Notes under the pieces: model-generated
Seen by the model: only the letters and a program-made list of their open reading frames with translations
The model's database searches: none
Told to the model about the DNA's origin: nothing
Shown here: in pieces, positions 27,645 through 32,485 of the stretch
Layout of the letters: the number at the start of each line of letters is the position of its first letter
Position numbering within the stretch: the first letter of the stretch is position 1
Source of the DNA: Jannaschia seosinensis
Lineage (GTDB): Bacteria; Pseudomonadota; Alphaproteobacteria; Rhodobacterales; Rhodobacteraceae
DNA: 39,521 bases
Assembly: GCF_001408515.1 (NCBI RefSeq)
Contig: NZ_CYPR01000023.1
Coordinates: forward strand, 1-39,521
Reading direction: 5' to 3'
Position numbers and translations under genes: made by a program

Positions 27645-28853
27645 TCAAGGCTCCTTTGTCACCGAACTGGACCTGGATCGGCGGCGGGGCAAGACCAACC
27701 ACGCGGCCAGCACCGCCCCCGCCGCCCCCGCGACCGTCAGCGTCGCGGGCAAGCCGAAGGGGCCCGCGAGCCAGCCGAGAAGCCCGGAGCCCACCGCCAC
27801 CGCACCGATACCCACCACGACCCACAAGGACATGACGCGGCCACGCAGATCGTCGGGCAACGCCTCCTGCACGGCGGCCTGAAGCGAAACGCCGGTAAAG
27901 GTCGACGCGAAGCCGGCCGCCGCAGTCCAGAAGAGGGCGCCAGCCCAACTCTCCGATAGACCCAGCGCGGCAAGCGCGGCGACGCCGGCCACCAGAACCG
28001 CGCGCGTCAGCGGCGGAATTCCCCCCTGCCCGGCACCGACCGTCTTGGCCAGCGCGGCCACAAGCGCACCCGCCCCCGCCGCAGCGGTCAGGATGCCGAG
28101 CCCCTCGGCACCACGCTGATGGACGCCTTCGGCCATGACGGGCAGAAGCTCCAGATAGCCGCGCACGAGGATCGCCATCGCCGCCGTGAGTATCAATGCC
28201 TGTCGCGCAACCGGCGTGGCGGCGAGGAAGCGTGCAGCCTCCGCCAGTCCCTCGCGAACCGAAGCACGGGTACGTGTCGGCAGGGGGCGAGGATCCATCC
28301 AATGCACCGCGACCAGCATCGGTAGATAAAGCGCCGCCGACATCCACAGCGTCGCCACCGCGCCCACGGAAGCCAGCGCGAGCCCCGTCAGCACCGGCGC
28401 CGTCATCCGCCCCAGGTTGAAGTTGAGCGCCGACAGCGCGACGACATTGGGCACGTCGGGTCGGGGAACAAGACGGGGCCCAAGCGACATGCGCACGGGA
28501 TGATGCGCCGCGGTGACAAGTCCGACCGCAATCGCCACGACGATCAGCCCCCACCGCCCCAGGCCCGGCCCGCCGGCAACGAGCGCGGCCAGCGCCAGCA
28601 GCACCGCCATCGAACCGGAAGTGAACAGCAGCGCACGGCGGATGTCGGCGCGGTCCACAAGCACCCCGAAGACCGGCCCCGCGAAAATCATCGGCGCAAG
28701 TCCCAGCGCCGCGACCAGCCCGACGAAAGGCGCCGAGCCCGAAACCTCCCACGCAAGCCATCCCAGAGTGACTCGCTGCGCCCAGAGCGCCTGGACCAAG
28801 GGAATTGCAGCGAAGAAGTACGCACGGAAGCCGATATGGGAGAGTGCACTCAT
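27645..28853 (-). CDS. MFS transporter (EntS-like exporter)
   Basis: 402 residues with about twelve hydrophobic helices. The start is MSALSHIGFRAYFFAAIPLV, and the motif-A-like loop between helices 2 and 3 is GPVFGVLVDRADIRRALLFT. A C-terminal DDLRGRVMSLWVVVGIGAVA block is typical of the EntS/DHA3 type of MFS exporter. The substrate is unknown. It is coupled with mrp (two bases between). It is divergent from the DUF1127 gene, with about 230 bases between the starts. Confidence 0.88.
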   Translation of the reverse strand: MSALSHIGFRAYFFAAIPLVQALWAQRVTLGWLAWEVSGSAPFVGLVAALGLAPMIFAGPVFGVLVDRADIRRALLFTSGSMAVLLALAALVAGGPGLGRWGLIVVAIAVGLVTAAHHPVRMSLGPRLVPRPDVPNVVALSALNFNLGRMTAPVLTGLALASVGAVATLWMSAALYLPMLVAVHWMDPRPLPTRTRASVREGLAEAARFLAATPVARQALILTAAMAILVRGYLELLPVMAEGVHQRGAEGLGILTAAAGAGALVAALAKTVGAGQGGIPPLTRAVLVAGVAALAALGLSESWAGALFWTAAAGFASTFTGVSLQAAVQEALPDDLRGRVMSLWVVVGIGAVAVGSGLLGWLAGPFGLPATLTVAGAAGAVLAAWLVLPRRRSRSSSVTKEP

Positions 28854-28967
28854 GCACGTACCGCAACGTAAGGCCGTGTTACGACCCTAAGCTGGGCCGA
28901 AATATGTTTAAAATTAGAAGCTTCTGCTCCCCGCCATGCAAATGCTGCATAGCGGCATTGTCCGCTC

Positions 28968-29000
28968 GAAGGATTGTGCACCTGCGGCGACGAGGCCATG
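28968..29000 (+). promoter_or_regulatory. Weak candidate promoter for the DUF1127–sRNA unit
   Basis: TTGTGC and CATGTT are separated by 17 bases in the 230-base spacer before the DUF1127 gene, within about 28974–29003. They only loosely resemble the TTG-type -35 and C-rich -10 boxes used by alphaproteobacterial RpoH factors. The related R. sphaeroides locus is RpoH-dependent, which is the main reason to look here. The call is tentative. Confidence 0.2.
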
Positions 29001-29083
29001 TTCAGTCCAACGAAACGAGACGCGAGCCGGCAATGGGGCTGGATCGCATGGGGCCAAAGCGGCCCTGATGAAAGGAAGACATC

Positions 29084-29302
29084 ATGGCTACCACGACCTA
29101 CGGCAACGCCACCGCCATCACCACCCTCCGCGAAAGCTTTGCGGCACGTATCGCCACGGCCCGCGCCAACCACGCCCGCTGGCGGACCTATCGTCGGACG
29201 CACGACGAGTTGTCGGCGCTTTCGGACCGCGATCTGGCCGATCTCGGCATGAGCCGGTCCGGCATCCGCGCGGTGGCCTACGAGGCGGCTTACGGCGCCT
29301 GA
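29084..29302 (+). CDS. DUF1127 small protein, CcaF1-like
   Basis: 72 residues: MATTTYGNATAITTLRESFA, a basic helical middle (ARANHARWRTYRRTHDEL), then the DUF1127 signature LSALSDRDLADLGMSRSGIR. AAGGAAG precedes the ATG. In R. sphaeroides a DUF1127 protein (CcaF1) is encoded directly upstream of the CcsR sRNA cluster and is an RNA-binding protein that affects sRNA maturation. The same arrangement is seen here, since a hairpin array starts 11 bases after the stop. A role in RNA binding is therefore inferred from context and family. Confidence 0.93.
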   Translation: MATTTYGNATAITTLRESFAARIATARANHARWRTYRRTHDELSALSDRDLADLGMSRSGIRAVAYEAAYGA

Positions 29303-29313
29303 CGGAATTCCCG

Positions 29314-29340
29314 CATTGCCCTCTCCTCCCTTGGGCAATG
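29314..29340 (+). ncRNA. CcsR-type hairpin 1
   Basis: Stem CATTGCCC (29314–29321) with GGGCAATG (29333–29340), eight perfect pairs. The 11-base loop TCTCCTCCCTT exposes the anti-Shine-Dalgarno motif. Confidence 0.88.
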
Positions 29341-29348
29341 TGGGTAAC

Positions 29349-29381
29349 GCGGCGGCGATCTCCTCCCGATCCAACCGCCGC
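29349..29381 (+). ncRNA. CcsR-type hairpin 2
   Basis: Stem GCGGCGG (29349–29355) with CCGCCGC (29375–29381). The 19-base loop contains TCTCCTCCC (29359–29367), flanked by GATC on each side that could pair inside the loop. Confidence 0.85.
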
Positions 29382-29388
29382 ACCTATT

Positions 29389-29416
29389 CCTGGCCTTTTC
29401 CTCCCATTGGGCCAGG
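29389..29416 (+). ncRNA. CcsR-type hairpin 3
   Basis: Stem CCTGGCC (29389–29395) with GGCCAGG (29410–29416), extendable by one T–A pair. The loop TTTTCCTCCCATTG carries CCTCCC at 29400–29405. Confidence 0.87.
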
Positions 29417-29420
29417 ATGT

Positions 29421-29454
29421 ACCGGAACCCCTCTCCTCCCTTGGGGTTTCCGGT
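29421..29454 (+). ncRNA. CcsR-type hairpin 4
   Basis: Stem ACCGGAACCCC (29421–29431) with GGGGTTTCCGGT (29443–29454), eleven pairs with one bulged T. The loop is TCTCCTCCCTT, identical to that of hairpin 1. Confidence 0.89.
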
Positions 29455-29466
29455 AGAACGAAGGCC

Positions 29467-29502
29467 GGCGGCGCCCCTCTCCTCCCAATAAGGGGCGTCG
29501 TC
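29467..29502 (+). ncRNA. CcsR-type hairpin 5
   Basis: Stem GGCGGCGCCCC (29467–29477) with GGGGCGTCGTC (29492–29502), eleven pairs including two G·U pairs that exist only in plus-strand RNA. The loop TCTCCTCCCAATAA carries the motif at 29478–29486. Confidence 0.89.
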
Positions 29503-29556
29503 GGAACCTTTGGAAATTTTCCGGTTGCCACCCGTTACGGTCGCCCGAACGAAATT

Positions 29557-29591
29557 CGCGAAGCGGTCTCTCCTCCCTCGGCCGTGACGCG
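29557..29591 (+). ncRNA. CcsR-type hairpin 6
   Basis: Inner stem GCGGT (29563–29567) with GCCGT (29581–29585), two of the pairs G·U, plus a possible C29568–G29580 closing pair. A 2×2 internal loop follows (AA opposite GA), then outer stem CGCG (29557–29560) with CGCG (29588–29591). The loop holds TCTCCTCCC at 29569–29577. Weaker than the others. Confidence 0.75.
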
Positions 29592-29596
29592 ATCCC

Positions 29597-29630
29597 CGAG
29601 GCCGCCCTTCCTCCCAAGAGGCGGACCTCG
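29597..29630 (+). ncRNA. CcsR-type hairpin 7
   Basis: Stem CGAGGCCGCC (29597–29606) with GGCGGACCTCG (29620–29630), ten pairs with one bulged A. The loop CTTCCTCCCAAGA carries CCTCCC at 29610–29615. Confidence 0.88.
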
Positions 29631-29640
29631 ATCAAAGAGA

Positions 29641-29672
29641 CGGCGGCGCTTTTCCTCCCTTAAGCGTCGCCG
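29641..29672 (+). ncRNA. CcsR-type hairpin 8, also the array terminator
   Basis: Stem CGGCGGCGCTT (29641–29651) with AAGCGTCGCCG (29662–29672), eleven pairs with one G·U. The loop is TTCCTCCCTT. It is followed at once by TTTTCTGTT (29673–29681), so this hairpin fits an intrinsic terminator as well as an sRNA module. Confidence 0.9.
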
Positions 29673-29813
29673 TTTTCTGTTCCGCACCCCGTGAATGAAC
29701 TGACGCTTCTGCATCATGCCCTGCCCGTCATCCGGCAGGTGAGCGGAGCGATGTCGTTGACGGGCCGTACCGCAGGTGACGCAGACCGTCCCGACCGGCA
29801 TCCACTCGATTCG

Positions 29814-32237
29814 TCAGAACGGAACGTCAGCCTGATCCTCCGGAAGCAAAAACCGCCCGACGATCTTCTTTGTCCCGGACTTGTCGAACTCGACCTCGAG
29901 CTTGTCGCCCTCGACCCCCATGACCTCGCCATAGCCGAACTTCTGGTGGAACACCCGGTCCCCCTCGACGAAGGCGCTCACTGCGCTGGCATCGATGACG
30001 AGGTTCTTGGCCTCCGCAGGCTGGCGCATGGGCCGGGATCCGCGGGACTGCAGGCGCCGCCAGCCCGGCGAATTGTAGACGTCGGCCGAAGCCGCCTGCT
30101 CCTGAAGGTGGCTCTCGACACCGCCTCCCATGGCGGCCTGTTGCGCCGCGGCCATGCCAGATGCGCCAAACCCACCACCATAAAGACCCGGCGGCGTCAG
30201 AACCTCGACATGCTCCTCGGGGAGCTCATCAATAAACCGCGACGGCATCGCCGATTGCCACTGGCCGTAGACGCGACGGTTGGCGGCAAAGGAAATCGTG
30301 CAGACCTCTTCGGCGCGGGTGATCCCCACATAGGCGAGCCTGCGCTCCTCCTCCAAGCCCTTCATGCCGCTTCCGTCCATGCTGCGCTGTGACGGAAACA
30401 GGCCGTCTTCCCAACCGGGCAGGAAGACGACCGGGAATTCGAGGCCCTTGGCGGCGTGAAGCGTCATCAGCGTGATCTGCGGCTCGCCCTCGCTCTGCTC
30501 GTTGTCCATGATGAGCGAGACATGCTCCAGAAAGCCCTGAAGGTTCTCGAACCCCTCCAGCGCCTTGATCAGCTCCTTGAGGTTTTCCAGCCGGCCCGGC
30601 GCCTCGGGCGTCTTCTCGTTCTGCCAGAAGGTCGTATAGCCGCTCTCGTCGAGGATTTCCTCGGCAAGGCGGATATGGTCGCGCCCGTCCAGAAGTTCCG
30701 CGCGCCAGCGATCGAAACCGTCGCACAATTCCTTGAGCGCCGCGCCCCCCTTGCCGCCGATCGTCTTCGTGCGGACGCAAAGCTTCGCCCCTTCCAGAAG
30801 CGACACGCCGTTGGAGCGCGCCATACGCTGGATCGTCTGCTGCGCCTTTTCGCCGAGCCCTCGCTTGGGCGTGTTCACGATCCGCTCGAAGGCGAGATCG
30901 TCATCCGGGCTGATCGTGACGCGAAAATACGCCATGGCATCCCGTATTTCGAGCCGTTCGTAAAAGCGGGGGCCGCCGATCACGCGATATGGCAGGCCGA
31001 TCGTCAGGAACCGGTCCTCGAATGCGCGCATCTGGTGGGCGGCCCGCACGAGGATCGCCATCTGATCCAGCGCGAAGGGCTTCATCCCGCGCGTGCCCGA
31101 CTGCATCGCCTCGGCTTCCTCGCCGATCCAGCGCGCCTCCTCGTCACCGTCCCAATGGCCGATGAGGCGAACCTTCTCCCCCTCCTCCGCGACGGTCCAG
31201 AGGGTCTTGCCCAGCCGGCCCTTGTTGCCGGCGATGACGCCCGAAGCAGCGCCAAGAATATGAGGCGTGGAGCGGTAATTCTGCTCCAGCCGGATGATCT
31301 CCGCCCCCTCGAAATCCTTCTCGAAGCGCAGGATGTTGCCCACTTCCGCACCGCGCCAGCCGTAGATCGACTGGTCGTCATCGCCCACGCAGCAGATGTT
31401 GCGATGCCCGCCCGCCAGAAGCCGCAGCCACAGGTACTGCGCGACGTTGGTGTCCTGATACTCGTCCACGAGGATGTAGCGGAACCACCGGCGATACTGC
31501 GCCAGAACATCGTCGTGGGTCTGGAAGATCTGGATGACGTGCAGCAACAGGTCACCGAAATCGACGGCGTTGAGCGTCAGCAGCCGGTCCTGATACTCAC
31601 GGTAAAGCCGCACGCCGCGCCCGTCAAACGCCTCCGCCTCGTGGGCTGGCACCTTGTCGGGGGTCCAGGCGCGATTCTTCCAGTGATCGATGATCCCGGC
31701 GAGCATCCGCGGCGGCCACCGCTTTTCGTCCATGCCCGCGGCTTGGATCAGTTGCCGAAGGAGGCGGTTCTGGTCGTCGGTGTCCAGAATGGTAAAGTTC
31801 GACTTCAGATGCAGGTCGCGCGTCCCCGTCTCGAGCAGCGGATCGGGAACCGTGCGGCCGATAAGTTCCGCATGCCGGCGCAACAGCTTGACGCAGATCG
31901 AGTGGAAGGTGCCGAGCCAAGGCATGCCCTCGGCCACTTCGCCCATCATGGCACCCACCCGATGGCGCATCTCGCGCGCGGCCTTGTTGGTGAAGGTCAC
32001 GGCCAAAATCTCGTTCGGGCGCGCCTTGCCCTGCGCCATGAGGTGCGCGATCCGCGCAGTCAGGGCGCGGGTCTTGCCTGTACCCGCACCTGCCAGCATC
32101 AGGACCGGACCGTCGAGGCGCTGCACCGCCTGCATCTGGGCAGCGTTCAGACCGTCGAGATAGGGAGCCGGCCGCGAGGCCATTGCGCGGGCCGAGAGGC
32201 TCGCGGCCTCCATCGGGTCGGATTCGTACTCGTCCAT
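29814..32237 (-). CDS. uvrD: UvrD/PcrA-type ATP-dependent DNA helicase
   Basis: 807 residues from ATG at 32237 (MDEYESDPMEAASLSARAMA). A longer frame upstream is not family-like. It is an SF1A helicase: Q-motif NAAQMQAVQRLDGP, Walker A AGAGTGKT (49–56), AVTFTNKAAREM (motif Ia), LVDEYQDTN (motif II), VGDDDQSIYGWRGA (III), and YRST and LMTLHAAKGLEFPVVF (V). The C-terminal RVFHQKFGYGEVMGVEGDKL is the Tudor-like RNA polymerase-binding tail of PcrA/UvrD. It unwinds DNA in excision and mismatch repair. It is divergent from pyc. Confidence 0.95.
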   Translation of the reverse strand: MDEYESDPMEAASLSARAMASRPAPYLDGLNAAQMQAVQRLDGPVLMLAGAGTGKTRALTARIAHLMAQGKARPNEILAVTFTNKAAREMRHRVGAMMGEVAEGMPWLGTFHSICVKLLRRHAELIGRTVPDPLLETGTRDLHLKSNFTILDTDDQNRLLRQLIQAAGMDEKRWPPRMLAGIIDHWKNRAWTPDKVPAHEAEAFDGRGVRLYREYQDRLLTLNAVDFGDLLLHVIQIFQTHDDVLAQYRRWFRYILVDEYQDTNVAQYLWLRLLAGGHRNICCVGDDDQSIYGWRGAEVGNILRFEKDFEGAEIIRLEQNYRSTPHILGAASGVIAGNKGRLGKTLWTVAEEGEKVRLIGHWDGDEEARWIGEEAEAMQSGTRGMKPFALDQMAILVRAAHQMRAFEDRFLTIGLPYRVIGGPRFYERLEIRDAMAYFRVTISPDDDLAFERIVNTPKRGLGEKAQQTIQRMARSNGVSLLEGAKLCVRTKTIGGKGGAALKELCDGFDRWRAELLDGRDHIRLAEEILDESGYTTFWQNEKTPEAPGRLENLKELIKALEGFENLQGFLEHVSLIMDNEQSEGEPQITLMTLHAAKGLEFPVVFLPGWEDGLFPSQRSMDGSGMKGLEEERRLAYVGITRAEEVCTISFAANRRVYGQWQSAMPSRFIDELPEEHVEVLTPPGLYGGGFGASGMAAAQQAAMGGGVESHLQEQAASADVYNSPGWRRLQSRGSRPMRQPAEAKNLVIDASAVSAFVEGDRVFHQKFGYGEVMGVEGDKLEVEFDKSGTKKIVGRFLLPEDQADVPF

Positions 32238-32485
32238 ACGGCGACAGATAGAGCGGGCGCGGAGCAGATGGAACCCCGCGTTCCCCTTGCGTTCACCTGC
32301 CGCGACGAACCGCCGTCCACGCGCGGGCGAGCCTCGCCGCACAGACGACGCGGACGGCCGCCCTGACCATCGCACGACGCAAGCCGAATCGCCCACAAAG
32401 CCCGATCATTGGCGAATGATCCGCCCCCGATCTTGCCGCGTCGCAGCACGGAGTCTACCAATCGGGAACCGACGGGAGGGACCAG

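Follow-up and report, generated by a model that had tools for sequence, protein, structure and literature searches.

Eight tandem plus-strand hairpins (29310-29676) lie directly 3' of a short DUF1127 gene in Jannaschia seosinensis, and the locus is the Jannaschia form of the known ccaF1-CcsR locus (CIN1, cuckoo RNA). We consider it very likely that this locus gives rise to stress-induced 3'-UTR sRNAs which would block several GGGAGGA ribosome-binding sites. The features of the locus and its neighbours in the window (the whole stretch of 39,521 nucleotides analysed) are as follows.

27648-28853, minus strand: MFS gene, upstream flank
28937..28950, plus strand: LysR-type box 1, TGCAAATGCTGCAT, fitting the LsrB motif TGCA-N6-GCAT, at -147 from the ATG
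28974..29001, plus strand: place of box 2 and promoter TTGTGCA...CCATGT, which we take to be RpoH-like only by its resemblance to the RpoH consensus
28977-28990, plus strand: degenerate box 2 of the window, TGCACCTGCGGCGA
29084..29302, plus strand: gene for a 72-aa CcaF1-like DUF1127 protein (Pfam PF06568, E 5e-11)
29310..29344, plus strand: hairpin 1, from folding around CCTCCC
29349..29381, plus strand: hairpin 2, GGCGGCG-type stem, from folding, Rfam (hairpins 1-2 match CcsR1) and arm comparison
29388..29417, plus strand: hairpin 3, from folding around CCTCCC
29420..29455, plus strand: hairpin 4, from folding around CCTCCC
29465..29504, plus strand: hairpin 5, GGCGGCG-type stem
29505..29555, plus strand: 51-nt linker, in the window with only a poorly spaced EcfG-type candidate
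29556..29592, plus strand: hairpin 6
29597..29630, plus strand: hairpin 7, from folding around CCTCCC
29637..29676, plus strand: hairpin 8, by appearance also a Rho-independent terminator
29817-32309, minus strand: UvrD/Rep helicase gene, downstream flank, convergent

Folding of the hairpin array

The eight CCTCCC motifs of the array (at 29325, 29362, 29400, 29435, 29481, 29572, 29610 and 29654) all lie in terminal loops, and 50-nt folds around them range from -17.9 to -28.7 kcal/mol. None of the other 27 CCTCCC sites in the window (19 on the plus and 8 on the minus strand) is loop-enclosed in a fold better than -14.8; the site at 30124 gives a fold of -16.1 with the motif outside any loop. 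By a second folding measure the eight hairpins range from -15.7 (hairpin 3, the weakest) to -27.4; of 4000 folds of base-shuffled arms, 3.1% reach -14 and 0.8% reach -16.3. The eight tandem CCTCCC-loop hairpins described in an earlier note on this DNA are thus real: they fold strongly on the plus strand, and the remaining CCTCCC sites of the window fail to do so. The G·U pairs noted in hairpins 5, 6 and 8 are present by inspection. A tandem-repeat scan of the window reported a single short row at 29284-29305, and no tandem repeats over the array itself.

The same note held that structure rather than sequence is kept, and this is borne out among 12 eight-hairpin arrays of the genus. Swapping stem arms between these arrays weakens the mean fold from -21.3 to -14.3 kcal/mol, every hairpin class losing 2.5 to 10 kcal/mol, while the left arms are merely 43-68% identical; since swapped arms fold worse, the hairpin structure is kept. 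The arm-swap test was used because the alignment slips at the loops when the whole of it is given to RNAalifold, a run in which hairpins 1, 3, 4, 6 and 7 were not recovered. In a 10-array alignment, both sides have changed in 17 of 61 predicted pairs, some of the 61 coming from misaligned loops.

All eight loops of the window contain the core UCCUCCC. The textbook loop CCUCCUCCC is found exactly in none of them, with C-to-U changes at the 5' end of the motif, and over 20 Jannaschia arrays (window included) it is exact in 56 of 159 loops. The stems had been called unrelated, which describes most pairs of left arms (0.52-0.62 mean identity) but not those of hairpins 2, 5 and 8, which have a GGCGGCG-type left arm in common and a mean identity of 0.68-0.72. 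Other similar left arms are those of hairpins 7 and 8 (0.69), 5 and 7 (0.66), and 6 and 8 (0.64). The proposed terminator on hairpin 8 has the expected appearance, with TTTTCTGTT directly 3' of the hairpin; it went unreported by a simple terminator scan, probably because the loop is longer than the 8 nt the scan allows.

Family identity and array size

The Rfam CcsR1 model (RF02791) matches 29306-29386 (E 3e-5), 29591-29678 (E 2.9e-4) and 29417-29509 (E 0.16), covering hairpins 1-2, 7-8 and 4-5, with a best score of 30.3 bits against a gathering score of 65.3. The ar14 model (RF02344) matches 29551-29679 (E 4.8e-6), with 41.4 bits for hairpins 6-8 and 30.8 bits for hairpins 3-5, against a gathering score of 58.8. 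Comparison with covariance models of the CcsR family therefore yields matches, all of them below gathering. Weak matches to ar7, ROSE (on the minus strand), Scr3202, 6C and others were set aside as related hairpins or chance. Genome-wide, the CcsR1 model has its two strongest matches within the hairpin array (E 2.8e-5 and 2.7e-4), and the next one elsewhere has E 0.018. In a search of 295 genomes of the taxonomic family, using stricter filters and E<=1e-6, CcsR1 was found in 202, the window's own genome giving no match under these settings; 10 of the 295 pass the gathering score.

A second array was sought elsewhere in the genome and rejected. Among 17 loci examined, which cover 12 of the 15 other places (two on C78 and one on C185 were left out), a cluster occurs only in L005, and there is one overlapping pair of folds (-16.3 and -12.4). 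Two further DUF1127 genes of this genome, L009 (C162:56319) and L011 (C200:14791), have no anti-Shine-Dalgarno (aSD) hairpin cluster within the stretches examined.

The DUF1127 gene and the array occur together in each of the 19 further Jannaschia genomes searched, with the loop core kept and stems that vary yet pair, so the conservation among related genomes holds. DUF1127 genes with CcsR-like RNAs are known as the CIN1 locus, frequent in alphaproteobacteria (PMC10253847), and the window has the same arrangement, a short DUF1127 gene directly before same-strand aSD-loop hairpins. Cuckoo RNAs are defined as having 2-4 hairpins per RNA (PMC4504443); the stems here are likewise unconserved but pairing, with the aSD loop core kept, and the eight hairpins would fit this range if split 2+3+3. 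The GGCGGCG-type left arms of hairpins 2, 5 and 8, together with the Rfam matches, suggest such a 2+3+3 grouping. The link drawn by the earlier note to DUF1127/CcaF1, CcsR and cuckoo RNAs is supported by the Rfam matches and by the gene and array in 19 of 19 genus genomes.

The array is not an expansion, as had been supposed. We take RS0680a and CcsR1 to be the same RNA. RS0680a has two aSD stem-loops (PMC3927594) and R. sphaeroides carries four such RNAs, CcsR1-4 (PMC8625941, PMC10253847), so that CcsR1-4 already amount to eight hairpins. The 19 other genus genomes have 8 hairpins in 11 cases, 7 in four, 9 in two, and 6 and 11 in one each. When the module number was compared at 80 loci of relatives in the Rhodobacteraceae (nine from Jannaschia; three, L094, L108 and L114, cut by contig ends), it ranged from 0 to 15, with at least eight hairpins in 34 and more than eight in 24, as counted by a motif scan, which may miss individual hairpins or add spurious ones. 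Two genus loci with 5 hairpins under a 130-nt gap rule had 8 and 9 on recount, and ten loci outside the genus have 11, 11, 15, 0, 4, 2, 9, 7, 0 and 2. Five genomes of the best-scoring genus have 4, 4, 5, 7 and 8 CcsR1 matches (the 8 on two contigs), and one of these five, G338, has exactly eight motif hairpins. Array size thus varies widely and eight is common, which corrects the idea of a special expansion.

Genome G094 (locus L130) is presumably R. sphaeroides 2.4.1, and L130 and L168 are presumed to be Cereibacter loci. G094 has the highest CcsR1 score, 106.2 bits, a value shared by two further genomes of its genus. Its array comprises seven two-hairpin units, each a CcsR1 match, with 18 motif hits (14 of them the exact nine-base motif), and is partly a 114-bp repeat of 5.4 copies. 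We note that L130 (G094:C4:691706-692456) has seven CcsR1 matches compared with the four RNAs given in papers; the copy number may be undercounted or unstable.

The window resembles ccaF1-CcsR1-4 of R. sphaeroides (CIN1, RF02791) in its DUF1127 gene (71-72 aa), the downstream aSD-loop hairpins, the paired upstream boxes and the RpoH-like promoter. In contrast to L130 and L168, which have regular two-hairpin units and exact CCUCCUCCC loops, the window array is interrupted by a single long gap and appears to group as 2+3+3; its loops show just UCCUCCC, and its Rfam scores stay below gathering. It likewise resembles ar14/NfeR1 of Sinorhizobium meliloti (RF02344), which has three aSD-loop hairpins and an LsrB box TGCA-N6-GCAT upstream. 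NfeR1 differs in having its own RpoD promoter, and a DUF1127 gene is unmentioned in the accessible text of the source (PMC10746234).

Predicted action and candidate targets

By analogy with the relatives in R. sphaeroides and S. meliloti, a stress-activated promoter would give a single transcript that spans the DUF1127 gene and its 3' UTR and terminates at hairpin 8. RNase E, with help from the DUF1127 protein, would then cleave this UTR to release stable sRNAs that each carry two to three hairpins, as CcsR1-4 are matured by RNase E and CcaF1 (PMC8625941, PMC10253847). The UCCUCCC loops are predicted to pair with GGGAGGA ribosome-binding sites and so block translation of several mRNAs, much as ntrB is silenced by the aSD loops of NfeR1 (PMC10746234), and the number of hairpins would set dose and redundancy.

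This preferred reading has to be weighed against two others. The hairpins could be chance or by-products of coding sequence, given the GC-rich genome and a mechanical 252-aa ORF (28936-29694) that runs through the array, but the shuffle and arm-swap controls, the conservation in relatives and the Rfam matches leave this a negligible probability. The array could instead titrate another RNA or a protein without acting on mRNAs, and many similar loops on one transcript would suit such a sponge. However, the RNA family is published as mRNA binders, the R. sphaeroides arrays are reported to be cut into pieces, and the 80 loci have anything from 0 to 15 hairpins, so we regard a sponge as highly unlikely. 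The earlier suggestion of a sponge or a multi-target regulator is therefore best kept in its second half, a multi-target binder of Shine-Dalgarno (SD) sites.

Candidate targets were sought as GGGAGGA-N3-9-ATG, which occurs 91 times compared with 21 for a reversed control; one of the 91 is the antisense of the array, and two are one site with two ATGs. AAGGAGA, a usual SD, occurs 87 times compared with 9 in its control, and GGGAGGA is therefore simply one common SD here. Beyond the first 30 loci, 61 places remained, from which 11 repeats (of three start contexts) and one double were removed, leaving 49 that were fetched. ORFs of at least 100 aa numbered 18 in the first batch (a 146-aa ORF at L215 was omitted) and 37 in the second, 48 of the 55 having a Pfam domain. 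For AAGGAGA, 61 of the 87 places were taken in list order, skipping C101 and C141, and gave 45 ORFs, 37 of them with Pfam. The Pfam threshold was E 0.001 in the first batches and 1e-5 in the second.

Transport parts (ABC, TRAP, tricarboxylate) make up 17 of the 48 Pfam-positive GGGAGGA genes compared with 5 of 37 for AAGGAGA (Fisher p 0.026), a class that was picked after the first batch had been seen. The first batch gives 6/17 vs 1/17 (p 0.085) and the second alone 11/31 vs 4/20 (p 0.35); p becomes 0.054 if one control symporter is counted, and is 0.17 for solute-binding proteins alone. Among the genes behind these counts, the control transport gene L237 begins within its domain, and L208 and L293 appear to be copies; L296 (RbsD/FucU) was left out of the transport class. 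The excess agrees with the transporters given as targets of NfeR1 and AbcR (PMC10746234), and GGGAGGA-led transporter genes are perhaps, on a weak indication, predicted targets. Target prediction for GGGAGG sites thus returned more places than the control, from what is one common SD, with a weak transport excess.

Two further observations were made on GGGAGGA genes of this genome. A PhaR-type regulator of PHB accumulation (L313, C253:10095) lies behind GGGAGGA and is a possible target. The three start contexts that recur do so five to six times each on several contigs, and probably belong to insertion-sequence genes; one of them, L216, has transposase-type HTH domains.

Upstream boxes and the gap within the array

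Paired boxes TGCR-N6-GCAW, 39 or 40 bp apart, are present in 61 of the 80 loci compared with 0 of 385 control windows, and single boxes in 76 of 80 loci compared with 6% of controls. The pair is also found upstream in L130, L168 and L131, from CcsR1-bearing genomes; none was found in L132, where the script took a longer ORF. In relaxed form the boxes fit the LsrB motif TGCA-N6-GCAT, which lies upstream of NfeR1 (PMC10746234). Box 1 is intact and box 2 degenerate in the window, and the strict paired-box pattern is absent from the window's whole genome. TTGTGC, which box 2 overlaps, is followed by bases resembling CCCATCT, in keeping with an RpoH-type promoter; an RpoH-like pattern occurs in 23 of 80 loci compared with 1.8% of 330 controls, and an RpoHI/II promoter has been reported for the R. 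sphaeroides locus (PMC3320616, PMC10253847). The fixed spacing of the pair in 61 of 80 loci suggests that one and the same regulator acts on CcsR-like RNAs throughout the Rhodobacteraceae, just as NfeR1 is under LsrB control in rhizobia.

The longest gap of the Jannaschia arrays, mostly after hairpin 5, often holds GGAAC-N17/18-GTT, and the EcfG consensus is GGAAC-N16-CGTT (PMC3892343). Since 11 of the 19 sister genomes have an EcfG-type promoter resembling that of nepR in this gap, the terminal hairpins could form an RNA of their own. One genus array would then contain two RNA genes: the DUF1127 transcript would supply the first hairpins, and those at the end, with the terminator (6-8 of eight), would have their own EcfG promoter, like the separately transcribed three-hairpin ar14/NfeR1 RNA. 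We consider the case for this evenly balanced. When scored with a matrix built solely from 19 nepR promoters (null of 3200 windows, 99.9th percentile 14.0), the gap reaches 15.6-19.6 in 11 of the 19 relatives, the -10 lying in each of them 29-34 nt ahead of the following CCTCC, but the other eight do not score (-6.4 to 7.4). GGAAC-N14-18-GTT is present in 12 of 20 gaps, one being the doubtful site of the window, compared with a mean of 0.29 in 200 shuffles. NepR is encoded in all 20 Jannaschia genomes, 19 of which have the same promoter geometry before nepR, and hairpins 6-8 match ar14, though below gathering. On the other side, GGAAC and GTT may arise as a hairpin stem, as the part of the window array before the gap also scores 14.3. 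In the Yoonia-type arrays L054, L088, L116, L120 and L121, a GGAAC..GTT has a fixed place, roughly +145 to +147 relative to the DUF1127 stop; by position it overlaps a hairpin, and it resembles a stem more than a promoter. That the gap is a ninth hairpin which has lost its motif was considered and rejected: folds of six such stretches gave z values of 0.62 to -1.92 relative to shuffles, at best a mild gain, and what is conserved is GGAAC and GTT, with a variable spacer between them. The window's own gap scores 14.3, just above the 99.9th percentile of the null. An inner promoter is not claimed there because the spacer is 15 nt and the -10 lies at 49 nt instead of 29-34 nt; it has probably not been retained.

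More tentatively, with the balance tipping slightly against it, the CcsR array of many Jannaschia (11 of 20 genomes) may be split into two stress circuits with one aSD output. The first hairpins, on the DUF1127 transcript, would be under a paired LysR-type site and an RpoH-like promoter, and an EcfG promoter inside the array would yield the final three or four as an independent RNA; in the window's species this inner promoter would have decayed or moved. The last hairpins of the sister species compare with GsrN of Caulobacter, a C-rich-loop sRNA under an EcfG/sigT promoter; GsrN differs in that its reported BLAST relatives are only in Caulobacteraceae, and in that it raises KatG expression by pairing with the katG 5' leader.

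Both the paired LsrB-like boxes upstream of DUF1127 loci and the inner EcfG-type promoter of the sister genomes look like new observations. Among the literature matches listed, which include little of the subscription literature, none reports that CcsR/cuckoo RNAs linked to DUF1127 genes are controlled by EcfG or by a LysR-type regulator. The box pair offers a predicted, testable regulation for the whole RNA family. The inner EcfG-type promoter of the sister species would link these RNAs with the general stress response and, if the split into two circuits is true, two stress pathways would feed the same anti-Shine-Dalgarno output.
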